A DNA stretch of 50,744 nt, taken from contig JAPPBT010000014.1 of assembly GCA_026702745.1 (NCBI GenBank), positions 1 through 50,744 on the forward strand. The letters run 5' to 3'. The translations under genes were made by a program, and so were the position numbers. Source of the DNA: Gemmatimonadota bacterium. Its GTDB lineage: Bacteria; JAAXHH01. The notes beneath the pieces are model-generated. The model was not told where the DNA came from, made no database searches, and was given only the letters and a program-made list of their open reading frames with translations. Within the stretch, counting starts at the first letter, position 1, and each line of letters begins with the position of its first letter. Positions 635 through 44,681 of this stretch are shown piece by piece.

Positions 635-1756
635 ATGAATACTGCAGGATTCATGAATCGTGTGTTGATTTGCCTTCTCGGTGCAATGATAGTCGTTGCC
701 GCGATTATAGCCTATCTGTTGTTTCGGCCGGATGTTGGGACGCGGATTTTCTTTGGAGTGGGCCCCTCATCGGTAGATATCAAGATTAAGAACGATTACG
801 AGGTCCCCGCCGCGGACGAGAAAACCGAGGCCATCGTGGCGGCTGCAAGGTTATTTCTGGATTCACTGGACGAAAGTCAGAGACAAGCGGCGACATACCG
901 GTTCACCGATAACGCGCAGCGCGCGAACTGGTCCAACCTGCCCGAGGGCATGGTTCCGCGTGGAGGTGTAATGCTTGGTGTGCTCACTGAAGCACAGCGG
1001 GCGAATCTGGATGGGCTTCTTAGCGAACTGCTGAGTGAAGCCGGTATGGAGAACATCACGCATCAACTGGCCGCGGAAGACCTGCTGGTCTCTGGAGACG
1101 TGCTCGGTGTCATGAAATACGGCAGCAGGTACTTCACCGCTGCATTTCTCGGTGAACCGTCCACTTCTGAGCCCTGGATGTTCCAGTTCGGCGGGCACCA
1201 TCTCGCCATAAACGCCACGGTATTCGGACCGAACGTTTCCTTTTCACCTATGCTGACGGGCGGCCAACCGTTGCACCTGCACCTTGACGGTGACGATGTC
1301 TTCGTTACGCGAAGGGAAACTGCGGCGGCACAGGCGTTCTTGGAGAGCCTTTCGGACGAACAGAAGCGACAAGCTGTGCGTTCAGGCCGGCCCATCGACC
1401 TCCTGCTAGGCCCGGGAAAGTATGGCGTTACCATTGCGCCGGAAGGCATCAAGGGAAGCGATCTGACCACCATCCAGAAAACGTTGCTCCTGGATGTCAT
1501 TGAGGCCCGTCTGGGTTTCATGAATAGTGACGATTATGCACAGAAAATGAAAGCCGTGGTGGCCGGTATCGAGGACACGTACTTTGGATGGTGGGGACGG
1601 CAGGATGTCCCGGGCGCCGTGTATTTCCGCGTAACCGGTCCGTCCATCGTACTCGAATATGCGGTTCAAAACGGCGAGGACACCGTAGATCACGTTCACA
1701 GCATGTATCGTGATATAGATAACGACTACGGTTCCGCTTGGATCGGGGCCGAGTGA
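635..1756 (+). CDS. DUF3500 family protein, membrane-anchored or exported
   Basis: A 373-residue protein when started at the ATG at 635, which has a GAGGA four bases upstream; an in-frame start at 581 would run through the sulfatase relic and is rejected. Residues about 8-30 form a hydrophobic N-terminal anchor or signal. The rest matches my memory of DUF3500 proteins: a LDSLDESQR opening helix, the central block WMFQFGGHHLAIN with paired histidines, and a second LESLSDEQKRQA helix. The function of DUF3500 is unestablished; the His-rich core suggests a metal-dependent enzyme, which is inference. It converges on the Sel1 gene at 1825. Confidence 0.75.
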   Translation: MNTAGFMNRVLICLLGAMIVVAAIIAYLLFRPDVGTRIFFGVGPSSVDIKIKNDYEVPAADEKTEAIVAAARLFLDSLDESQRQAATYRFTDNAQRANWSNLPEGMVPRGGVMLGVLTEAQRANLDGLLSELLSEAGMENITHQLAAEDLLVSGDVLGVMKYGSRYFTAAFLGEPSTSEPWMFQFGGHHLAINATVFGPNVSFSPMLTGGQPLHLHLDGDDVFVTRRETAAAQAFLESLSDEQKRQAVRSGRPIDLLLGPGKYGVTIAPEGIKGSDLTTIQKTLLLDVIEARLGFMNSDDYAQKMKAVVAGIEDTYFGWWGRQDVPGAVYFRVTGPSIVLEYAVQNGEDTVDHVHSMYRDIDNDYGSAWIGAE

Positions 1757-1824
1757 ATGTTGCTAGCGTGTTTAAACGTCTAGGCGTTCGAAGCGATCCG
1801 TCCGGTCTGCACGATCCATATCAC

Positions 1825-3597
1825 TTACCTCGAAGGATCGATCCGTTCCCGAATCAATTCCAATAGTTCCTTAGCTTGCTCCAGCATGCCTTCAGTCATA
1901 TTCTGTTTGACCAATTCCAGGTTGTGAACGGCGATACTGTCTCCACGCTCCGCTGCCAGACTGATCCAGGCATAGGCCTTGACGAGGTCCCTCATGGAAC
2001 TGTCGCCATTGAAGTGGACGATTCCCATATTGGTCATGGCTTCAATCTTTCCCTGTACGGCGGCCATCATATACCACCTGACCGCCTCTCCGTCATCTTC
2101 CTGCACTCCTCTACCTTTGTCGTAGGAAAGCCCGAGATTGTACTGGGCCATTTCATGACCCTGGTCCGCAGCCAGGCGAAACCAACGTATTGCTTCAGTA
2201 TGGTTTGTCGGCCTACCTTCACCGAAAGCGTACATTACTCCCAGATTGTACCGAGCGCTTGTATGGCCGGCCTCCGCAGCCATGCGATACCAACGATACG
2301 CTTCAATCCAATCCTGCTCCACGCCGTCTGCGAGATGGTACATGTATCCGAGTCTCTCCTGGGCATCATCGACACCCTGTTCGCCCGCCAGAGTGTACCA
2401 CCGAACCGCCTCTTCATTGTCCTCGGGAACGCCGTCGCCGTGATCATACTTGTAGCCCAGGATGTACTGAGCCGATTTGTGACCTTGTTCACCGGCTTTG
2501 CGGTACCAGTGAACGGCTTCTTCGACGTCTCCAATAACGCTGACCTCATCATCATACAGAACGGCAAGGCTGAATTGTGCTTGCACGTGATCCTGCTCAG
2601 CCGCCTTGCGGTACCAAAGTGCTGCCTTAGTAGTGTCCTCCGGTACACCATCGCCACGGGCATACCGTGCAGCAAGATTGTACTGGGCTTCCACATAGCC
2701 TTGTTCGGCAGCTTTATAGTACCATTCAACCGCCTTGCCTGCATCCTTCGGTACACCATCACCCCGGGTATAACGTGCGGCCAGATAGAACTGGGCTTGT
2801 GCATTGCCCTGCTCGGCAGCTTTACGATACCAAAAGGCCGCCTGGGTGGCATCCTTTGTGACGCCCTCGCCCTGTGAATACATAATGCCCAGGTTAATCT
2901 GGGATGCGTCATGGTCCTGCTCGGCAGCCTTCCGGTACCAGTATACCGCTTTCTCATCATCTACAGGAACACCATCACCGGTATCGTAGATAAGACCGAC
3001 GAAGTACTGCGCGGAATAATGTCCCAGTTCTGCAGCCTTGATGAACCAGATGAGTCCTTTTCCCGGGTCTGCCTCCACTCCGATCCCATACTTATACATG
3101 TATCCAAGTCTGACTTGAGCGTCCGCATCTTCCTGAACGGCGGCTTTTTGAAGCCAGCCAAATGCCTCGGAGGGATTCTCATCGACCCCGTCGCCATTCA
3201 GGTACATGGCGCCCAGTCTATACTGGGCTCTCACATGGTCCTGTTCCGCAGCACTTCGGTACCACTGCATGGCCCTGGCAACATCTTCTTCCACACCCCT
3301 GCCGCGGGCATACATAAACCCGAGCATGTACTGGGCTTTCGCGTGATCCTGCTCGGCAGCTTTCGAGTACCACTTGAACGCTTCCTCGTAATCCTGTTCC
3401 ACATCCTTGCCGTCATAGTAGATCTCGCCCAGTTCATATTGCGCCTCGGCGTCACCAGCCACCGCCGCCTGGCGTGTTTCCTCCAGGCTGGCTTCGATTT
3501 GCCCCTGCACGTGCACCGGCACGAGAACCATAACCACGAGAGCGAGTATCATGGATCCTGCCAACAACCGAGTCCGAGTTAAGGTCTGCTCACCCAT
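1825..3597 (-). CDS. Secreted Sel1-like repeat protein (about 15 repeats)
   Basis: A 590-residue protein with an N-terminal signal peptide (basic start, hydrophobic residues about 10-30, cleavage probably after VQG). It is followed almost entirely by 36-residue Sel1-like repeats of the form A..WYRKAAEQGH..AQY.LG.MY..G.GV..D. I count about 15 units; the last three are more degenerate. Sel1 repeats form TPR-like superhelices that scaffold protein-protein contacts. No enzymatic domain is present. The next gene upstream on the same strand is a second protein of the same design, 124 bases away, suggesting duplication and divergence. Binding partners are unknown. Confidence 0.9.
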   Translation of the reverse strand: MGEQTLTRTRLLAGSMILALVVMVLVPVHVQGQIEASLEETRQAAVAGDAEAQYELGEIYYDGKDVEQDYEEAFKWYSKAAEQDHAKAQYMLGFMYARGRGVEEDVARAMQWYRSAAEQDHVRAQYRLGAMYLNGDGVDENPSEAFGWLQKAAVQEDADAQVRLGYMYKYGIGVEADPGKGLIWFIKAAELGHYSAQYFVGLIYDTGDGVPVDDEKAVYWYRKAAEQDHDASQINLGIMYSQGEGVTKDATQAAFWYRKAAEQGNAQAQFYLAARYTRGDGVPKDAGKAVEWYYKAAEQGYVEAQYNLAARYARGDGVPEDTTKAALWYRKAAEQDHVQAQFSLAVLYDDEVSVIGDVEEAVHWYRKAGEQGHKSAQYILGYKYDHGDGVPEDNEEAVRWYTLAGEQGVDDAQERLGYMYHLADGVEQDWIEAYRWYRMAAEAGHTSARYNLGVMYAFGEGRPTNHTEAIRWFRLAADQGHEMAQYNLGLSYDKGRGVQEDDGEAVRWYMMAAVQGKIEAMTNMGIVHFNGDSSMRDLVKAYAWISLAAERGDSIAVHNLELVKQNMTEGMLEQAKELLELIRERIDPSR

Positions 3598-3621
3598 ATC
3601 ACAACTCCGATTTAGTCTTGA

Positions 3622-3690
3622 TGTTTGACGCTCCGCTTGTTCGACGTTCAGTTTATTTGAAGCTACAGGTGTTCGATGCTCCGCCTGTTC
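3622..3690. repeat. Imperfect 21-bp direct repeat between the two Sel1 genes
   Basis: Copies at 3622-3642 and 3670-3690 share 18 of 21 bases around the core GCTCCGC.TGTTC. The unit lies in the short spacer between the Sel1 genes. It may be an operator or a trace of slippage; no function can be assigned. Confidence 0.5.
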
Positions 3691-3721
3691 AATCCGGGAC
3701 GACTGTTAATCGTACCCGATA

Positions 3722-5701
3722 TCAAGGCTGAGCATAGATTCGCTCTCGATACGTCTCGGCGAGCTTCTCCGCCTGCTCGATCTGGTTGGTGGACATGAAC
3801 ACCCTGAAAGCCTCGATGTTGCTATTGGCCAGACTGTCTCCCTTTGACGCGGCGACTCGAGTCCAGGCGTAGCCCAGGATTTCGTTCTCGGGTACTCCTT
3901 CTGCATAAAAATACATGTATCCCATGTTTATCTGGGCATTCACTATTCCCTGTTCGGCAGCCATTCTATACCACAGAAGCGCTTCCTCTTTATCTTTTTG
4001 AACGCCCTCACCGTTGTCATACATAACCCCGAGACTGTACTGAGCATCTCCATTGCCTTGTTCAGCAGCCTTGCGAAACCATGAAACCGCCTTTTCGTCG
4101 TTTTCCGGTACGCCTGTACCGGTATCGTACATCATACCTAGATTGTACTGAGAGCTCGAATGCCCCTGCCCTGCCGCTCTTGCGTACCAACGTGCGGCTT
4201 CAGTGTAATCCTGAGGAACGCCCATCCCGTTCTCATACATGTATCCGAGATTGTTCTGGGCGTACGGTTCGTCCTGGTCGGCAGCCTGCCGATACCACCT
4301 AACGGCTTCATTCAAATCTATGTTAACTCCATATCCATAATGATAAATGATCCCCAGGCCGAACTGCGCATCTGCATCGCCCTGGTCGGCAGCCTTGCCG
4401 AACCAGACCGCCGCCGTGGAATCGCTCTTTGCAACACCTTCACCAAACCTGTACATCACGGCAAGTTCGTACTGGGCGGACACGTAGTCCTGTTCTGCAG
4501 CACGTTGAATCCACTGTGCGGCCATCGATTTGTCCAATTCAACACCCTGTCCGTTCTGGTACAGAAGCCCCAGATTGTACTGTGACAGCGCGTTCTCCTG
4601 TTCCGCGGCCCTCCTGTACCATCTTGCCGCTTCGGCTAAGTCCTTTGGAACCCCCTCGCCGTTTTTGTACATCACGCCCAAATCATTCTGAGCATCCGCG
4701 TCCCCCTGCTCGGCGGCTTTGCGATACCAGTAAACGGCCTCATCTTTTTGTTCCGGAACCCCCTCCCCATAATCGTACATGACGCCGAGGCTGTATTGCG
4801 CATCGGCGTTTCCCTGCTCAGCGGATTTCCGATACCATTTCACTGCTTTCTCGTCGTCTACTGAAACACCGCGCCCTGTGTCATACATGGCGCCGATGGT
4901 GTACTGAGCGTCTGAGTCTTCCTGTTCGGCAGCGAGCCGATACCACTTAAACGCTTCGGATTCGTCCTTTGGAATCCCAGCACCACCGCGCTCATACATC
5001 AGTCCCAGATTGTACTGTGCGTTCAGGTTTCCTTGCTCGGCCGCACTCCGGTACCACTTGACGGCCTCGGCATCATTTTCCGCTACACCTGACCCTTCAT
5101 CGTACATGAGACCCAGGTTATTCTGCGCGAGTTTATGTCCCTGTCCAGCGGCTTTGAGATACCATTCGACGGCAAGTGATTCATCCTGCTCAACATGCTG
5201 GCCATTCGCATAGAAGACACCCAGAGCGTACTGTGCATCAGCATTGTCCTGCACGGCAGCCATATGAATCCACCGGATACTCTCGGACGGATCCTCCTGA
5301 ATGCCTTTACCATACAGGTACATGAGGCCCAGGTCGTACTGGGCGTCCGGATAGTCCTGACTTGCGGCCTTTGTATACCATTCCACTGCCTTCGCATCGT
5401 CTGTGGTTACACCTTCGCCAACATCGTACATGACACCAATCCTGTGCTGGGCTTTCGGGTGGCCCTGGTCCGCTGCTTTTCGATACCACTCCAGTGCCTT
5501 CGCATGATCTTCTGCCACGCCACTTCCGTGATAGTACATATCACCGAGGGAAGTTTGCGCCTCGGCATCGCCCTGATCGGCTTTCTGCAGGATTTCTTCG
5601 AAATCCGGAGATTCCTGGGCGGATATGTCGACAGTGCAGGTAACGCAGGCGGCACAGGTAATCAGCATCGAAAGTGCAAGGTAGAATTGCCATTTAATCA
5701 T
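3722..5701 (-). CDS. Secreted Sel1-like repeat protein (about 17 repeats)
   Basis: A 659-residue protein with a signal peptide (hydrophobic core about residues 6-20, likely cleavage after ISAQ). About 17 consecutive 36-residue Sel1-like repeats follow, highly regular (WYRKAAEQGNADAQYSLGVM is one core), with one 37-residue unit. It is probably periplasmic or outer-surface. It lies upstream of, and in the same direction as, the 590-residue Sel1 protein, so the two may be co-transcribed. No catalytic domain is visible. The near-identical repeats invite slippage, so copy number may vary among strains. The exact role is unknown. Confidence 0.9.
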   Translation of the reverse strand: MIKWQFYLALSMLITCAACVTCTVDISAQESPDFEEILQKADQGDAEAQTSLGDMYYHGSGVAEDHAKALEWYRKAADQGHPKAQHRIGVMYDVGEGVTTDDAKAVEWYTKAASQDYPDAQYDLGLMYLYGKGIQEDPSESIRWIHMAAVQDNADAQYALGVFYANGQHVEQDESLAVEWYLKAAGQGHKLAQNNLGLMYDEGSGVAENDAEAVKWYRSAAEQGNLNAQYNLGLMYERGGAGIPKDESEAFKWYRLAAEQEDSDAQYTIGAMYDTGRGVSVDDEKAVKWYRKSAEQGNADAQYSLGVMYDYGEGVPEQKDEAVYWYRKAAEQGDADAQNDLGVMYKNGEGVPKDLAEAARWYRRAAEQENALSQYNLGLLYQNGQGVELDKSMAAQWIQRAAEQDYVSAQYELAVMYRFGEGVAKSDSTAAVWFGKAADQGDADAQFGLGIIYHYGYGVNIDLNEAVRWYRQAADQDEPYAQNNLGYMYENGMGVPQDYTEAARWYARAAGQGHSSSQYNLGMMYDTGTGVPENDEKAVSWFRKAAEQGNGDAQYSLGVMYDNGEGVQKDKEEALLWYRMAAEQGIVNAQINMGYMYFYAEGVPENEILGYAWTRVAASKGDSLANSNIEAFRVFMSTNQIEQAEKLAETYRERIYAQP

Positions 5702-37442: not shown

Positions 37443-37483
37443 CGCGCCTCCTCCGTTTCGACGCGGGGAGGCGCGGTCTTTTT
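37443..37483 (+). terminator. Rho-independent terminator after glnA
   Basis: Stem CGCGCCTCC (37443-37451) pairs with GGAGGCGCG (37467-37475), with a 15-base loop and a T-run at 37479-37483. It lies between glnA and the glnE-like gene, so glnE may be expressed only by read-through or from its own promoter. Confidence 0.85.
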
Positions 37484-37553
37484 GAGGCAGACCAGGCAGG
37501 GGACTCCGGCGGACCGCACCCATGAACCGCGGCGAGCCAGGCAGGCCACGACC

Positions 37554-39125
37554 ATGACGACCCTTTCATTTGACCGCAATACGCTTTCCTCGCCGTTGCC
37601 GGCCGCGGTAAACGACCACCTGCGCAACTCCGGATTCGAGCAGCCGGAAGACGCCTGGCGCATGTTGGGACAGATCGATGCGAGACTGTCCCCACTCGGC
37701 GCCCCGGAGAACCTCATGCCGGCGCTGGTCGAGGCGGCGGGCAACTCCCTGCAGCCAGACCGGGCCCTCATCAGCCTGCACGCGGTTATTACGCGAAGCG
37801 GCGATGAACAGATCCCGGCCCTGCTGGACCTGCTGGCCGTGCCGTCGGCGTCCCGGGACGCGCTGCTCACGATCCTTTCGGCCAGTCCGTACCTCACCAC
37901 GACCCTCGTCCAGGACGCGGGGTTCCTGCTCGGAACTTTCGCCGGCGACGCGTGGCGCACGCTGCAGCCGGCGGAGGAACTGGACGCGGCATTGACGGGC
38001 ATGCTCGACGGCGTGTCTACGCCCGACGAGGCCATGAAACCCCTGCGCACGTTCAAGCAGCAGGCCTACCTGCGGATCGCCGTGTGCGACCTGATGCGGC
38101 AGTCCGGAACGCCGGCGGTCCTGGAACGGCTCACGGACGTGGCCGACCTCTGCCTGCAGGCTGCCCACGATGTGTGCGGCGCGAAACTGCAGGCCCGTCA
38201 CGGAAGGCCGATGCTCGAGGGATCGAAGCCGAGTGGTTTCGCCGTCATCGGCATGGGCAAACTCGGTGGCAGGGACCTGAACTTCAGCTCGGATATCGAC
38301 CTGCTCTATGTCTACGACGTCACGAACGGGCGCACCGAGAAGGACGGGACCTCCACCTACGAGTACTACCCCAAGCTGGCCCGGGCCATCACCGACCTCA
38401 TCAGCCGGCTCACGCCGGACGGGCAGGTGTTCCGCGTCGACCTGCGCCTGCGTCCGGAGGGGCGGGCCGGCGACATCGCCAACTCCATCGAAGGCTACCG
38501 CTGGCACTACGAGATCCAGGGTCAGGCCTGGCAGCGCCAGGCGCTCCTGAAGGCCCGGTTCTCGGCGGGGAGCAGCGAGGTGGGCCGGCGGTTCATTGAC
38601 ACGATCCAACCCTTCGTGTTCTACCCCGCCCTGGACCAGCCGTTGATCCTCGAGGATATCAACCACATGCGGGAGCGCATCGCAAAAGCATTGATCGAAC
38701 GGGGCAGCGGCGACTACCACGTCAAGCTGGGAAAGGGCGGCATCCGGGAGATCGAGTTCATCGCCCAGGGATTTCAACTCGTATACGGCGGAATCCAGGG
38801 TTGGCCCTGGGAGCGTGGCACCCGCCGGATGCTGGCCGATCTCGCGGATAAGGGGTACCTGTCGGACTCCGAGGCGGCCGACCTGGACGAAGCCTATCTC
38901 TTTCTGCGGGACCTGGAGAACCGCATCCAGATGACCTCGGGCCACCAGACCCACGAGATCCCCAGGGAACACGGCGCACAGGCCGTCCTGGCCGGCATGA
39001 TGGGACTGTCGGGGCCGACTCTCGAAGAGCGGCAGGCCGCGCCGGACAAGATGCTGGACGCCTACGGGAAGCACACCGCCCGCGTCCACCAGATCTACGA
39101 CCGGGTCTTCTACTCGGCGATGTGA
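37554..39125 (+). CDS. glnE: GlnE half-protein: adenylyl-removing (N-terminal) half only
   Basis: A 523-residue protein from ATG 37554; an upstream TTG at 37482 lies in the terminator and is unlikely. It matches the N-terminal half of GlnE: a helical lead, then the nucleotidyltransferase core GMGKLGGRDLNFSSDIDLLY with Asp247 and Asp249. VFRVDLRLRPEG and KLGKGGIREIEFIAQGFQL follow. Ordinary GlnE is about 940 residues with two such halves: the first removes AMP from glutamine synthetase and the second adds it. Here the reading ends cleanly after QIYDRVFYSAM, with no second half downstream. A separate transferase elsewhere, or loss of adenylylation, is possible. Confidence 0.88.
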   Translation: MTTLSFDRNTLSSPLPAAVNDHLRNSGFEQPEDAWRMLGQIDARLSPLGAPENLMPALVEAAGNSLQPDRALISLHAVITRSGDEQIPALLDLLAVPSASRDALLTILSASPYLTTTLVQDAGFLLGTFAGDAWRTLQPAEELDAALTGMLDGVSTPDEAMKPLRTFKQQAYLRIAVCDLMRQSGTPAVLERLTDVADLCLQAAHDVCGAKLQARHGRPMLEGSKPSGFAVIGMGKLGGRDLNFSSDIDLLYVYDVTNGRTEKDGTSTYEYYPKLARAITDLISRLTPDGQVFRVDLRLRPEGRAGDIANSIEGYRWHYEIQGQAWQRQALLKARFSAGSSEVGRRFIDTIQPFVFYPALDQPLILEDINHMRERIAKALIERGSGDYHVKLGKGGIREIEFIAQGFQLVYGGIQGWPWERGTRRMLADLADKGYLSDSEAADLDEAYLFLRDLENRIQMTSGHQTHEIPREHGAQAVLAGMMGLSGPTLEERQAAPDKMLDAYGKHTARVHQIYDRVFYSAM

Positions 39126-39200
39126 CGGCACGAGTACGGTCGACCGGCCATTCCGAATAAACCCTACCAGAACGTCAGCATCGTTGGTGCTTATGGGTGA

Positions 39201-41480
39201 ATGCCTATGAGCGAATCCAATCTCTCTTCACTGGTCGTCCGTGCCCAGACCGGCGACCGCGCAGCCTACGACGACATCGTCCTCCGGTTCCAGGACATGG
39301 CCGTGGGCTACGCCTCCGCCCTGCTGGGCGATTTCCACCTGGCCGAAGACGCCGCGCAAGAGGCCTTTGTCGGCGCCTGGACCGAACTGCCGCGCCTGCA
39401 CGAACCAGCGTCATTCCCAGGATGGTTCAAGCGGATCGTCTTCATGCGCTGCAGCCGTGTATTGCGCAGGCGGCAGCCCGTCGCCATTGAACACTCGGCG
39501 GCGGAATCGCTGGTGGCGGCGGAATCTCTGGTGACGGCTGAGTCGCCTATGGTGGCGCAATCGCTGGCCACGGCCGACCCCGGCGAGGAACTGGAATCGC
39601 GTGATGAGAAAACCCGGGTCATGGCCGCCATAGGCCGGCTGCCCGACGAAGAGCGCATGTCGGTCCTGCTGTTTTACATTTCGACTTATTCGCACCGGGA
39701 AGTCGGATCGTTCCTGGGCCTGTCGGCGTCGACGGTCAACAACCGGCTGCGCTCGGCCCGCAAACGTCTACGAAGGGAGATGCTGAAAATGGCTGAACGA
39801 GCATTGCCGGGACAGGCACCCTCGCGCGACGAGCGCTTCGCGCAACGGGTCGCGTATCTGCTCCAGCCCGAGGACATGAAGACCGAGCGCTACCAGTACG
39901 GGATTGAAGCCGTGGACGGCCACCAGGCCTGGGCGCTCTTCTGCGCAAGCGGTGCCGGCGACCTGGCGCGCGTCAACGCGTTGCTCGACCGGGATCCCGG
40001 TCTGGTAAACGCCCAGTACTGGTACCAGTTCCCGATCCACATGGCGGTTCGCGAGGGCCATGCCGAGGTGGTCCAGCTGCTGCTGCAGGCCGGCGCCGAC
40101 CCGGGACAGTCCCGTTATACCTATAATTCATGGGACAAGCTGCTCGCCACCGCCGAGGAGCGTGGCTACAGCGTCGTGAAGGCGCTGCTGGAAGCGGCGA
40201 TGCGGGAGCGATTCGGTTACGAACCCGCCTTTATCGAATTGTTCGAGGCGATCAGTGGCCGTGACCGGGCCGGGGTAGAGACCGTTTTGGACGGCCATCC
40301 CGAATTGATCCACGCCGCCGACGCGCTGGGCAACGGTCCGCTGCACTGGGCGGCGCTGACGCGGCAAATCAACCTGGTGGATCTCTTTGTCGCACGCGGC
40401 GCCAACCTGGAAGCTCGCCGCGCCGACGGTCAGACTCCGCTGCTGGTCTCGCTCAACGGGGACTACTGGTTCCGTTCAAGTGATTTGCCCGAAGAAGCCC
40501 CGAAAGACACCTGGGTCATCACGCGGCACCTTCTCGCCTGCGGTGCGGAGTACGCCCTGAGTATCGCGTGTGCGGCTGGCGATGAGGACAGGGTCGATGC
40601 GGTTCTGGCTTCCGATCCGGTCCAGGCCCGCATGCTTGACGCCGGTAGGCGTAGTCCGCTTGCCTACGCTGCCGGCAGGGGACACACCCGGATCGTCCGG
40701 AAATTGCTGGATCTGGGGGCCGACCCCAACCTGCCGGAAGAAAACGCGCCACGCGGCGGGGCACTCTTCGGCGCCTGTACGGACAACCACCTGGAGACGG
40801 CCAAACTGCTGCTCGAACGAGGGGCCGATCCCAACGCCGAGGTTGACTCATCCGGCTCATGCTTGACCACGGTCGAGTACAATCACGGCGAGAAAGGCCA
40901 TCGGATGCAGGCCCTGTTGCGCGAATACGGGGCTGTGACGCCACCCTATGCCATGATGGACGATTCGGAACTGGAACGGGCCTTGCGCGAGGGGGACGGC
41001 ATCGTTGCGCATCCACAGTTTCTGCACGAACTCATGGGACGGAACAATGCCGAGCTCATCCGCGTCTTTTTGGACATCACGCCAAACGTGGGCGATCTAT
41101 TCCGTCTGACGGACATCTGGGGCGGAAACTACCCTTCGGATCCCGATACGATCCGCGTCCTGGCCAGCCACGGCCTCGACCTGTGCCGCGCCAACTGGAT
41201 CGGCCGGACCTTCCTGCACGGCTGCGCCGAAAAGGGCGATGTCGCGGCGGCCCGCGTCTTCCTGGAGTTGGGGGCCGACATCGATGCGATCGAGCTCGAA
41301 TACGGGGGAACGCCCCTTGCGGCGGCCGCGCGCAGCGGGAAGGCCGATATGGTGCGTTTCCTGCTGGATCAGGGCGCCGACACGAACTTGCCGGCCGGGT
41401 CGGTCTGGGCTCAACCGCTCTACTGTGCCGAGAAGGAAGGTCACGGAGAGGTGGTGGGGATACTCAAGGCTCGTATGTAA
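39201..41480 (+). CDS. ECF sigma factor fused to a long ankyrin-repeat domain
   Basis: A 759-residue fusion. Residues about 10-85 are sigma region 2 (DIVLRFQDMAVGYASALLGD, AEDAAQEAFVGAW, FPGWFKRIV). A short linker has degenerate AAESLV repeats. Residues about 140-205 are sigma region 4 (AIGRLPDEERMSVLLFYISTYSH, then VGSFLGLSASTVNNRLRSARKRL). From about 230 to the end run about nine ankyrin-type repeats (PLHWAALTRQ, LLLERGADPN, TPLAAAARSGKADMVRFLLD). No frame break separates the parts. The ankyrin part may hold the sigma domain inactive or bind a signal protein in place of an anti-sigma factor; that is inference. ATGs at 39201 and 39207 are both possible starts. Confidence 0.9.
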   Translation: MPMSESNLSSLVVRAQTGDRAAYDDIVLRFQDMAVGYASALLGDFHLAEDAAQEAFVGAWTELPRLHEPASFPGWFKRIVFMRCSRVLRRRQPVAIEHSAAESLVAAESLVTAESPMVAQSLATADPGEELESRDEKTRVMAAIGRLPDEERMSVLLFYISTYSHREVGSFLGLSASTVNNRLRSARKRLRREMLKMAERALPGQAPSRDERFAQRVAYLLQPEDMKTERYQYGIEAVDGHQAWALFCASGAGDLARVNALLDRDPGLVNAQYWYQFPIHMAVREGHAEVVQLLLQAGADPGQSRYTYNSWDKLLATAEERGYSVVKALLEAAMRERFGYEPAFIELFEAISGRDRAGVETVLDGHPELIHAADALGNGPLHWAALTRQINLVDLFVARGANLEARRADGQTPLLVSLNGDYWFRSSDLPEEAPKDTWVITRHLLACGAEYALSIACAAGDEDRVDAVLASDPVQARMLDAGRRSPLAYAAGRGHTRIVRKLLDLGADPNLPEENAPRGGALFGACTDNHLETAKLLLERGADPNAEVDSSGSCLTTVEYNHGEKGHRMQALLREYGAVTPPYAMMDDSELERALREGDGIVAHPQFLHELMGRNNAELIRVFLDITPNVGDLFRLTDIWGGNYPSDPDTIRVLASHGLDLCRANWIGRTFLHGCAEKGDVAAARVFLELGADIDAIELEYGGTPLAAAARSGKADMVRFLLDQGADTNLPAGSVWAQPLYCAEKEGHGEVVGILKARM

Positions 41481-41517
41481 CATCGCCAGAACGTTTATTT
41501 GAATCGACTTAAACCAG

Positions 41518-41562
41518 AAACGCCCGGTACTGGGCTGAACGATTCCAGGACCGGGCGTTTTT
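41518..41562 (+). terminator. Rho-independent terminator, probably bidirectional
   Basis: Stem AAACGCCCGGT (41518-41528) pairs with ACCGGGCGTTT (41550-41560), with a 21-base loop and T-tract. A-rich sequence precedes it, so it could serve the ankyrin-sigma gene and the convergent RND gene alike. Confidence 0.88.
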
Positions 41563-41600
41563 CTGTATACAGACTGTGCTTGCGCGCTACCCCTTCACGC

Positions 41601-44600
41601 TTACGCCCAGGCCCGCTTTACGCTCGAAGTGACCCAGTTGCTCAGGTCTTCGAAGATGGTGTAGACCGTCGGCAGCAGGATGAGTGTCAGGATGCCGGAG
41701 GTGGTCAGGCCGCCCACCAGGGCCAGGCTCACCGGGCCCCACTGGTTGGCGCCACGGTCTTCCACGGGGCCGAAGAACTCGGGGAAGAAGAGGGGGGCCA
41801 CCATGGGCAGCAGGCCGAAGATGGTCGTCAGCGACGTCATCAGGATCGGCCGCAGCCGGTGCCGGCCGCCCAGGAGCAGGGCCTCCGTACGGGTCATCCC
41901 CTCCCTGCGCAAATGGTTCACGTGGTCGATGAGCACAATGGCATTGTTGACCGCCAGCCCGGACAGCACGATGACGCCGAGGTACGAGTTCGTGTTCAGC
42001 GTCGTCCCCGACAGGTAGAACACGATGAAGGCCCCCACCAGTCCGCAGAGCACCGACAACAGGATCGTGAAGGGCTGGATGAAGGACTCCGATATGGCCG
42101 CCATGATCAGGTAGATGAGGACCACGGACAGCATAATGGCGAAGAGGAACTCGCTCTGGGACTCCCGCATCATGTTCCAGTTCCGGCCCATGCTCCACGA
42201 ATAGCCCGGCGGCAGTTCCATGCTTTCCATCATCTCCGTCACCTGGGTGTTAATGGCACGTGTGCCCGGTCCCGTCGTGTTGCCGCCCACTTCCACCTGG
42301 GATTCCCGGTCCTTCCGCTCTATGGCGTCGGGCCCCTTCTGCTTGGTAAAACTGGCCAGGTTCCCCACGGGGATCATGCCGCCTTCGGCCCGCTCGAACG
42401 TCATATTCTGGAGCTTCTGCATGCTCGCGCGGTCCGCTTCCTCGAGTTGCAGCAGGATGTCCACCTCGCGGTCGTCGGCCTTGAACTTGCCCCGCGCTCG
42501 GCTGCTCAGTGCGGCCTGCACCGTACGGGCTGCCTGTCTCGGCGAGATCCCGTATGTCTGCGCCACGGCACGGTCGACCTGTACCTGGATCTCTTCGTCG
42601 CCCCGCTCCAGGCTCGTATCCACGTCCTTGAGACCCGGAATGACCTCCATCCGGTTCCGGATGTCCTCGGCGATATTGGAAAGCACCGCCATGTTGTCGC
42701 CCTTCAGCTCGACGTCCACACCCGATTGCCCGCCGCCGTAACGCCGCATGCGACCGGGTCTCCACTGTACGCCGGCGATTACAGGCAGCGCGCTGGTGAT
42801 CCGGGTCTGCAGCTGCGTGGCCGACTCCTGCCGTTCCTCCGGCGGAGTCAGCACGATGCGGATATTGGCCCGGCGCAGGCTGCCGTAGGACGAGATGGAC
42901 TCGATGTGGAAGTCCTCCTTGCGGTCCAGCAGGAGCGCCTCCACGTCCGTGAAGACGGTCTTGACGTCTTCGATGCTGTAACTACTCGGCAGATCCGCGG
43001 CGATCGCGATGTCCCGCGTCGGCGCCATGGGCTGGAACTCCGTCTCGATGTTCTGGTACAGCCAGTAGCTGCCGTAGAGGATCGCGGCGAAGGAAACCAC
43101 CGTAACGAACCGGTGCTTGAGGTTCCAGGCGAGGACCGCCGTGTACAGCCCCGACAGCCTCGCGAAGAACGCCGAAGGCTTGCCCAGCGGCCGGTTGAAC
43201 AGCCTGGAAGATACCAGCGGAATCAGCGTCAGCGCGATGAAGACCGCCGCCACCATGACGATGCAGAAGGTGACGACGAAGTCCTTCATGAAGAGCATGA
43301 ACCGGCTGCCGCCGCCCAGGAAGACCAGGGGCATGAATACGCAGAGGGTCGTCGCAGTAGCCGCGATGATGGCCATGGTCACCTCGCGGGTGCCCACGAC
43401 AGCCGCGATCCGCGCCGGCAGGTTGCCCTCCTGGCGATGGCGGTAAATGCTTTCGAGCACCACCACGGCGGCGTCAACGAGCATGCCTACCGCTAGCATC
43501 AGGCCCATGAGCGAGATCAGGTTGATGGAAACCGTGGACCCGGCGCCCTGGCGCAGCAGGTACATGAAAGTGAAGGTGCAGATGATCGAAATGGGGATCG
43601 CCAGGCTGATGATCAAGGTGCTGCGCACGTTCCGGAGGAAGAGGAACAGCACGATGACGGCGAGCATGCCGCCAAGCAGTCCCGTGTTCCGCAGGTCCGA
43701 AAGCCGGTCCGTTATGCTCTGCGACTGGTCGAAGAATACCCGCGTATCCAGGTCCGCGAACTGGGGCTGCGTCTGGAGTTCATCCAGCACGAGCTGGGTG
43801 CGCTGCGCCACGTCCACGATGTTGGCCGTGGACGTCTTGTACACCCGTATCGTGACCGCGTCGACCCCGTTCAGCCGCTGGAAACTGTTGTCTTCCGGAT
43901 AGTCGAAAGTCACCTCCGCCACGTCGCGGAGCGACAGGGTCGTACCCGGTATGGGCAGGTTCGCCACCTCTTCGGCGGCCCGGTACTCGTTCACGGAGCG
44001 CACCGAGTACTTCTTTCCGCCCTCGGTGACGGTCCCGGCCGTCATGGTGACGTTGTTCTGCGTCAGGGTCTGGCTGAGATTGAACAGATCGAGGTTATGG
44101 GACTGCAGCTTCTCGCTGTCCACGTGCACGAGCAGCTGCTTGTCGATCATCCCGCTGATTTCCACGTTCGCCACGCCGTCCACGCGCTGGATGCGCGGCT
44201 GGATCACCTTGGTGACGATGTTGTAGAACTCGGCGGGGTCCCCGTTCCATGCGACGCTGAAGTTGTAGATGGGCATATCGTTCGGGTTCCAGCGCCGGAT
44301 GCGGATGCGTTCCACGTCGGCCGGCAACTCGCCCCGGACCTGGTCGATCCGGTCCCGGACCTCCATGGCCGCCATGTTCATGTCCGTCCCGGTCTCGAAC
44401 TCGATGCGGACCCGCGCGTTGTCGTCACTGGAATTGGACTCCATGCTCTTCATGTTGCTGAGCGTCCCGAAGGCGTCCTCCAGCGGCCGCGTGATCAGCC
44501 GTTCCACTTCCTCGGGCGACGAGGAGGGATACGGCACGCTGACGTTCAGGGACGGGAAGGACATGTCCGGCAGGAACATCAGCGGCAGTCTGGTATAGGA

Positions 44601-44681
44601 AATCATACCCAAGGTGACGACACTGACGATGATCATGATCGTCGTCACCGGTCGGTTAACGGAAAACTCGGCAATGCTCAT
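41601..44681 (-). CDS. RND family efflux transporter (AcrB/HAE-like), second pump subunit
   Basis: A 1026-residue resistance-nodulation-division inner-membrane transporter with the usual duplicated plan: TM1, periplasmic loop, TM2-6, second loop, TM8-12. Landmarks are FSVNRPVTTIMIIV at the start, the proton-relay helix AVGMLVDAAVVVLESIYRH, and GLAVNNAIVLIDHVNHLRREG in the C-terminal bundle. It is proton-driven and works with the membrane-fusion protein at 48108 and an outer-membrane channel not seen here. The start overlaps the stop of the other RND gene by four bases (ATGA), as in MdtBC-type hetero-pumps. The substrate is unknown. Confidence 0.93.
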   Translation of the reverse strand: MSIAEFSVNRPVTTIMIIVSVVTLGMISYTRLPLMFLPDMSFPSLNVSVPYPSSSPEEVERLITRPLEDAFGTLSNMKSMESNSSDDNARVRIEFETGTDMNMAAMEVRDRIDQVRGELPADVERIRIRRWNPNDMPIYNFSVAWNGDPAEFYNIVTKVIQPRIQRVDGVANVEISGMIDKQLLVHVDSEKLQSHNLDLFNLSQTLTQNNVTMTAGTVTEGGKKYSVRSVNEYRAAEEVANLPIPGTTLSLRDVAEVTFDYPEDNSFQRLNGVDAVTIRVYKTSTANIVDVAQRTQLVLDELQTQPQFADLDTRVFFDQSQSITDRLSDLRNTGLLGGMLAVIVLFLFLRNVRSTLIISLAIPISIICTFTFMYLLRQGAGSTVSINLISLMGLMLAVGMLVDAAVVVLESIYRHRQEGNLPARIAAVVGTREVTMAIIAATATTLCVFMPLVFLGGGSRFMLFMKDFVVTFCIVMVAAVFIALTLIPLVSSRLFNRPLGKPSAFFARLSGLYTAVLAWNLKHRFVTVVSFAAILYGSYWLYQNIETEFQPMAPTRDIAIAADLPSSYSIEDVKTVFTDVEALLLDRKEDFHIESISSYGSLRRANIRIVLTPPEERQESATQLQTRITSALPVIAGVQWRPGRMRRYGGGQSGVDVELKGDNMAVLSNIAEDIRNRMEVIPGLKDVDTSLERGDEEIQVQVDRAVAQTYGISPRQAARTVQAALSSRARGKFKADDREVDILLQLEEADRASMQKLQNMTFERAEGGMIPVGNLASFTKQKGPDAIERKDRESQVEVGGNTTGPGTRAINTQVTEMMESMELPPGYSWSMGRNWNMMRESQSEFLFAIMLSVVLIYLIMAAISESFIQPFTILLSVLCGLVGAFIVFYLSGTTLNTNSYLGVIVLSGLAVNNAIVLIDHVNHLRREGMTRTEALLLGGRHRLRPILMTSLTTIFGLLPMVAPLFFPEFFGPVEDRGANQWGPVSLALVGGLTTSGILTLILLPTVYTIFEDLSNWVTSSVKRAWA

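Follow-up and report, generated by a model that had tools for sequence, protein, structure and literature searches.

The window, by which we mean the whole stretch of 50,744 nucleotides analysed, contains a gene, sigAnk-A, that encodes an ECF sigma factor and an array of ankyrin repeats in a single protein (Table 1). The DNA of the window is GC-rich and abounds in long antisense ORFs, so the length of an ORF is, on its own, weak evidence for a gene. The matches of sigAnk-A to the Pfam models of sigma2, sigma4 and ankyrin repeats all exceed the curated cut-offs, with Ank_2 extending across the C-terminal part at 7.5e-40, and the sigma70-ECF model TIGR02937 gives 74.1 bits against a cut-off of 42.9. 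The sigma–ankyrin fusion proposed in a first-pass annotation is thus real: one uninterrupted gene of 759 codons, found in five further species, in which sigma2 and sigma4 run without a stop into an ankyrin domain of about 520–530 residues.

Table 1. Features at and around sigAnk-A (window positions)
Feature	Position	Strand	Basis and remarks
Half-length GlnE-type adenylyltransferase, upstream neighbour	37482..39125	+	Pfam; conserved neighbour
Upstream footprint TACCAGA[AC]-N13-GGTGC, candidate regulatory element	39165..39190	+	conserved across carriers
sigAnk-A, sigma–ankyrin fusion gene	39201..41480	+	759 aa, ATG to TAA, no internal stops
Sigma region 2, residues 27–92	39279..39476	+	Pfam PF04542 Sigma70_r2, 8.5e-11
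Sigma region 4 with helix-turn-helix, residues 139–190	39615..39770	+	Pfam PF08281 Sigma70_r4_2, 6.4e-11
Hinge, residues 197–240, motif APSRDERFAQRV	39789..39920	+	flexible 201–210, then helix 211–221
Ankyrin solenoid, residues 240–758, about 12–13 units	39918..41474	+	Pfam, AlphaFold2, PDB ankyrin/DARPin matches, helix-pair count
Hairpin with T-run	41515..41568	+	fold -28.5 kcal/mol, z -5.6
RND-type transporter gene, convergent downstream neighbour	41601..44681	-	sequence inspection; conserved neighbour

Sigma2 and sigma4 are present and sigma1.1 and sigma3 absent (only Pfam PF04542 and PF08281/PF04545 match), which places the protein among the ECF (sigma70 group 4) factors; with an extra domain in frame after sigma4, it has the build of a one-component ECF. 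The best PDB matches for the sigma part are the ECF factors SigW, SigE, SigH and RpoE, and the core-binding and helix-turn-helix positions of sigma2 and sigma4 are conserved. The AlphaFold2 model, built on an alignment of 29 relatives, has a helical sigma2, a low-confidence linker (92–134), sigma4 to about residue 201, and an ankyrin solenoid in which pLDDT is mostly 80–97. Twelve clean ankyrin helix pairs and one pair with a long insert (413–446) make up the solenoid, so the ‘about nine’ repeats counted earlier were too few. Among solved structures Foldseek places ankyrins and DARPins nearest, although the TM-scores support the ankyrin fold only: they were computed over the whole chain, and comparing a flexible multi-domain protein in one go keeps them low. 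Translation may start at Met3 (39207), 7 nt upstream of which stands GGGTG.

The fusion recurs, uninterrupted and at 85–87% identity, in five other species of the genus, and every segment of it is under purifying selection. Across the six copies dN/dS (Nei-Gojobori) is 0.08 for sigma2 (residues 1–91), the most constrained segment in the window's genus, 0.19 for sigma4, 0.22 for the hinge and 0.15 for the ankyrin part; values so low in each segment indicate that translation crosses the junction and that both halves are kept. A second, diverged in-frame sigma–ankyrin fusion, 39–41% identical, lies on another contig (C83) of the same genome. It is present in all genus genomes searched, in one of them only partly on the contig, and its dN/dS values are 0.15 (sigma2), 0.09 (sigma4) and 0.13 (ankyrin).

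In all carriers of sigAnk-A the GlnE-type gene lies upstream and the convergent RND-type gene downstream, and HtrA-like and GlnA genes lie farther upstream wherever the analysed stretch extends so far. No anti-sigma gene adjoins sigAnk-A in the window or in any syntenic carrier, the adjacent genes being those for GlnE and RND, though one may still lie elsewhere in the genome. The GlnE-type neighbour is itself odd: only 547 aa long, it comprises one adenylyltransferase half, sits directly 3' of GlnA, and is conserved across the genus and the order.

The TACCAGA[AC] element of the upstream footprint, which we regard as a candidate regulatory site, is found at -36 in all six carriers, at -40 in one relative with a broken sigma frame (L051), and at -45 in three sigma-less sisters; 0.011 occurrences per 160 bp are expected by chance. 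When ACCAGAM-N13-GGTGC was sought as a regulon signature in ten genus genomes, the only consistent site was that at sigAnk-A itself, and the rest were at about the level of reversed controls. A scan of the sigAnk-A region for standard sigma70 promoters gave no match. Nor did a strict terminator scan of the same region; the downstream hairpin, which has a longer loop, emerges on folding. The hairpin is also found at sites that lack the gene, and so is independent of sigAnk-A and part of its surroundings. It is likely to be the shared terminator of the glnA–glnE side, and at the empty sites to end glnE transcription.

Such empty sites show that the whole gene is dispensable. It is missing from half of the genus, and in six genus genomes the RND gene is the next one after GlnE. 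Between the neighbours in two of these genomes (G001 and G005) a 25-base piece remains that matches sigma codons (window 39431–39455) at 25/25 and 24/25 positions, which indicates that the gene was deleted. The sigma head can also be lost alone. Three sisters (L048, L049 and L059) encode ankyrin proteins, about 81% identical, with starts that align with Met194/Met197 of sigAnk-A, and just 5' of the start they keep shreds of the codons for the sigma4 recognition helix (GTCAACAATC...CTACAAAAGG). Shuffled sequences reached the alignment score of these relics in 4 (L049), 9 (L048) and 31 (L059) of 2000 trials, and farther upstream all three have the TTTACCAGACC element known from upstream of intact genes. 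The deletion of sigma in this sister lineage, close to the branch of the window, is thus directly visible in the DNA. Sigma is absent, too, in L050; L046, which is nested among the sigma-less sisters and lies near a contig end, retains it only from codon 45; and in L051, L052, L054 and G213 the frame is broken within sigma while the ankyrin frame stays open. Some of these breaks may be assembly errors, as L052 and L054 contain runs of N. In the sigma-less sisters, with L046, the ankyrin part has a dN/dS of 0.12, and this constraint implies that the array does something without sigma.

Matches to the family occur in 16 of 16 genomes of the phylum examined. Fusions of this kind extend to other phyla: intact ones of 720–865 codons are present in genomes from the phylum of G103, a MAG labelled Poribacteria (three in G166, and others in G151, G165, G125 and G139), and from the phylum of G102, a MAG labelled Gemmatimonas (G191, G217 and others). 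Stand-alone ankyrin relatives (L053, L055, L056, L057, L058 and L060; 47–63% identity), from Gemmatimonadota and Planctomycetota MAGs, are as widespread as the fusions. The homologue search therefore yielded a mixture of fused and separate forms, rather than the uniformly separate genes that would have spoken against a fusion. The two forms are intermixed in the ankyrin tree and require at least seven changes of state, a tree that by itself cannot separate gain from loss of sigma. One locus, L161 (G194:C25), has a sigma frame (3087–3746, minus strand) and an ankyrin frame (1519–3357, minus strand) that overlap, the break falling just after sigma4; the two genes may be genuinely split, or the sequence may contain a frameshift error. 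A search of a plasmid collection returned partial matches only, none covering 80%.

sigAnk-A belongs to a modular, little-noticed family, whose members combine related sigma heads with tails that can be exchanged. The heads usually have a PSRDxxF hinge, and the tails are GNAT-like (L105, L117 and L181), TPR (L112), TPR with HATPase (L184), HEAT (L185), LRR (L177) or FliM-like (L178); ankyrin repeats with an ATP-synthase-type nucleotide-binding tail occur in L179 and L188, and other ankyrin arrays in L115, L170 and L180. Of the ECFs collected, 47 of 77 whose tail is longer than 150 aa have the hinge motif PSx[DNR]xx[FL] after sigma4, versus 1 of 21 whose tail is shorter than 30 aa, a contrast that is indicative only, because the sequences were gathered with a fusion-based profile and are biased towards hinged proteins.

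Related heads are also joined to an AAA+ domain and even to metabolic enzymes. In L174 (1–1476, plus strand; G166:C40) an ECF sigma70 head is joined to a sigma54-activator-type AAA+ domain with its lid, which unexpectedly brings the two transcription systems together. In L176 (1008–3077, plus strand; G166:C129) an ECF sigma is joined to a seemingly complete adenylosuccinate lyase (PurB); no other ADSL_C match turned up in G166. Three in-frame fusions of ECF sigma to SAICAR synthetase (PurC) come from three different ECF parents: L153 (1432–2889, plus strand; G167:C24), L201 (817–2343, plus strand; G125:C58) and L195 (847–2349, plus strand; G166:C311). G167 and G125 have a stand-alone PurC in addition; in G166 no other PurC was seen. 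Tentatively, and with the odds somewhat against us, we suggest that the sigma–hinge unit might be an exchangeable transcription-output head, gained and lost in evolution by binding proteins of the cytoplasm and even by metabolic enzymes (ankyrin, LRR, HEAT, GNAT, AAA+, adenylosuccinate lyase and SAICAR synthetase). Proteins of this build might make up a class of one-component sigma regulators that has gone unrecognised, in phyla of the Latescibacterota/Gemmatimonadota type and their neighbours, and their transcriptional output would directly report the state of the protein attached. If real, sigma heads on PurB and PurC would tie metabolic enzymes directly to promoter choice.

An anti-sigma is usually missing where an ECF has a C-terminal extension; in ECF42 the TPR tail, and in ECF41 the SnoaL tail, controls the fused sigma (PMC9023288, PMC8999054). 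The 2021 ECF reclassification, in the form in which it is summarised later, has 19 groups with extensions of 50–200 residues (PMC9023288). sigAnk-A resembles ECF42 in its ECF head, helical-repeat C-terminal tail, lack of an obvious anti-sigma and sigma4-proximal segment (PMC8999054, PMC9023288), the counterpart of which in ECF42 is required for activity (PMC9023288, PMC8999054). Its domain content sets it apart: the tail is ankyrin rather than TPR, of which Pfam finds no match, and is about 530 aa long versus about 200. With ECF57 and the WD40 ECFs of Gemmataceae it shares an ECF head on a long protein-binding repeat domain (PMC8999054, PMC8567305, PMC11032199), but theirs is a WD40 propeller and its own an ankyrin solenoid, and Pfam detects no WD40-like repeats. 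ECF41 and ECF56 are likewise one-component ECFs with a fused domain, which is regulatory there (PMC3426412, PMC7730460); their SnoaL tail, however, is a small ligand-binding fold and that of sigAnk-A a repeat solenoid without a SnoaL-like match in Pfam. The model for MzaA (NCBIfam NF041931), a protein of the MZA anti-phage system named as sigma-70 family, matches ankyrin residues of sigAnk-A, but the score is 55 bits, where 800 is the cut-off, and the match covers ankyrin positions 13–88 of the model only; no mza neighbours occur among the window genes examined, and PADLOC gave ankyrin-matching models only. By its domains or by these cut-offs sigAnk-A is neither an MzaA nor a member of ECF41, ECF42 or ECF57. 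Stand-alone ankyrin proteins such as L048, L053 and L060 have the orthologous ankyrin domain, 47–81% identical, without the sigma head. The first-pass annotation knew of no ankyrin-regulated ECF group, and we too found no ankyrin-tailed ECF described in the literature searched, a body that leaves out the 2021 reclassification itself (Casas-Pastor 2021). The best reading is that sigAnk-A is a one-component ECF of a known sort with an ankyrin payload that we have not found described.

We therefore favor, at a probability of about 0.55, the view that sigAnk-A is a soluble, anti-sigma-free, one-component ECF factor and modular-family member, whose ankyrin array would be a fused input module, the tail having a job of its own besides. 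The sigma2–sigma4 unit would bind core RNA polymerase and recognize a promoter, and a short hinge would link it to the rigid solenoid; binding of a cytoplasmic partner protein to the solenoid would then alter the availability or activity of sigma, a way of working like that of ECF41, ECF42 and ECF57. The gene might regulate itself through the upstream footprint. That AlphaFold2 joins sigma and solenoid by a low-confidence hinge fits this reading. Against it, the hinge is conserved in sigma-less proteins too and may serve to cap the ankyrin array instead of coupling to sigma4, the gene is missing from half of the genus, in two cases through deletion, and the footprint has no second consistent site in the ten genus genomes. 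The suggestion that the protein includes its own regulator or signal receptor accordingly stands as the best reading by analogy with one-component ECFs, but is incomplete, since sigma-less orthologues keep the ankyrin part under selection. We propose that the tail outlives sigma because of its own job.

Rather unlikely, though to be reckoned with, is the converse: that function resides chiefly in the ankyrin protein, which would be a scaffold or a binding protein, that sigma is a dispensable output controlling only its own gene, and that the array does not regulate sigma at all. The repeated erosion of sigma—deleted, absent, truncated or frame-broken—beside an ankyrin ORF that is open throughout and, in the sister group, constrained, argues for this, as does a footprint whose sole consistent site is the one immediately 5' of the gene. 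But sigma2 is the most constrained segment in the window's genus, several distant genomes still have intact fusions, and some of the frame breaks are perhaps those of the assemblies. The array could instead be a tethered anti-sigma that folds back on sigma2/sigma4 until a partner releases it. ECF41, whose SnoaL tail holds sigma closed (PMC9023288), is a precedent, and sigAnk-A has no anti-sigma gene nearby. We consider this improbable, however: the contacts between ankyrin array and sigma2/4 that the first-pass annotation proposed to look for find no support as a fixed interface in the AlphaFold2 model, which has a low-confidence hinge and no inter-domain error matrix behind it, and the array is conserved where sigma is gone, so that something besides contact with sigma must constrain it.

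Stand-alone orthologues begin exactly at Met194/Met197, and AAGGGAG stands 9 nt 5' of Met197. These facts would suit two products, the full-length protein and a free ankyrin protein made from the internal start or by cleavage at the hinge, were it not that the AAGGGAG bases encode conserved sigma4 residues, so that their likeness to a ribosome site may be due to chance; we think such a pair of products very improbable. Less probable still is a eukaryote-like ankyrin effector for host association. Ankyrin proteins are common in sponge symbionts, and the orthologues are from MAGs of lineages known from sponges, but the N-terminus is occupied by an intact, selected sigma factor and shows no export signal, and Gemmatimonas and planctomycete MAGs also have stand-alone relatives. 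That two genes were merged by a frame error or in assembly, as the existence of separate forms might suggest, retains practically no probability and is already refuted by the present data: the same in-frame junction recurs in six assemblies, five of them from the further intact species, dN/dS is low through the junction with its hinge codons constrained, and the diverged paralogue on C83 is fused in frame as well.

Described ECFs with built-in sensors have small tails or tails of TPR or WD40, and an ankyrin-tailed class adds to them. The natural sigma-less and differently tailed relatives are ready comparisons for how a fused domain controls sigma. Some genomes carry at least three sigma–ankyrin genes, which may make this a main mode of signalling in poorly known lineages.

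The genome of the window contains further proteins of related build. The region around the second fusion (G000:C83:25000–80000; L011, L012 and L013) has many ankyrin genes, relatives of the sigAnk-A ankyrin domain among them, and a fusion of a bacterial globin to ankyrin repeats (L012 13474–15081, minus strand). On yet another contig (G000:C51) L005 (1384–3309, plus strand) encodes another long-tailed ECF, whose tail, about 440 aa in length, has no Pfam match; similar proteins of 626–649 aa occur in most genus genomes.
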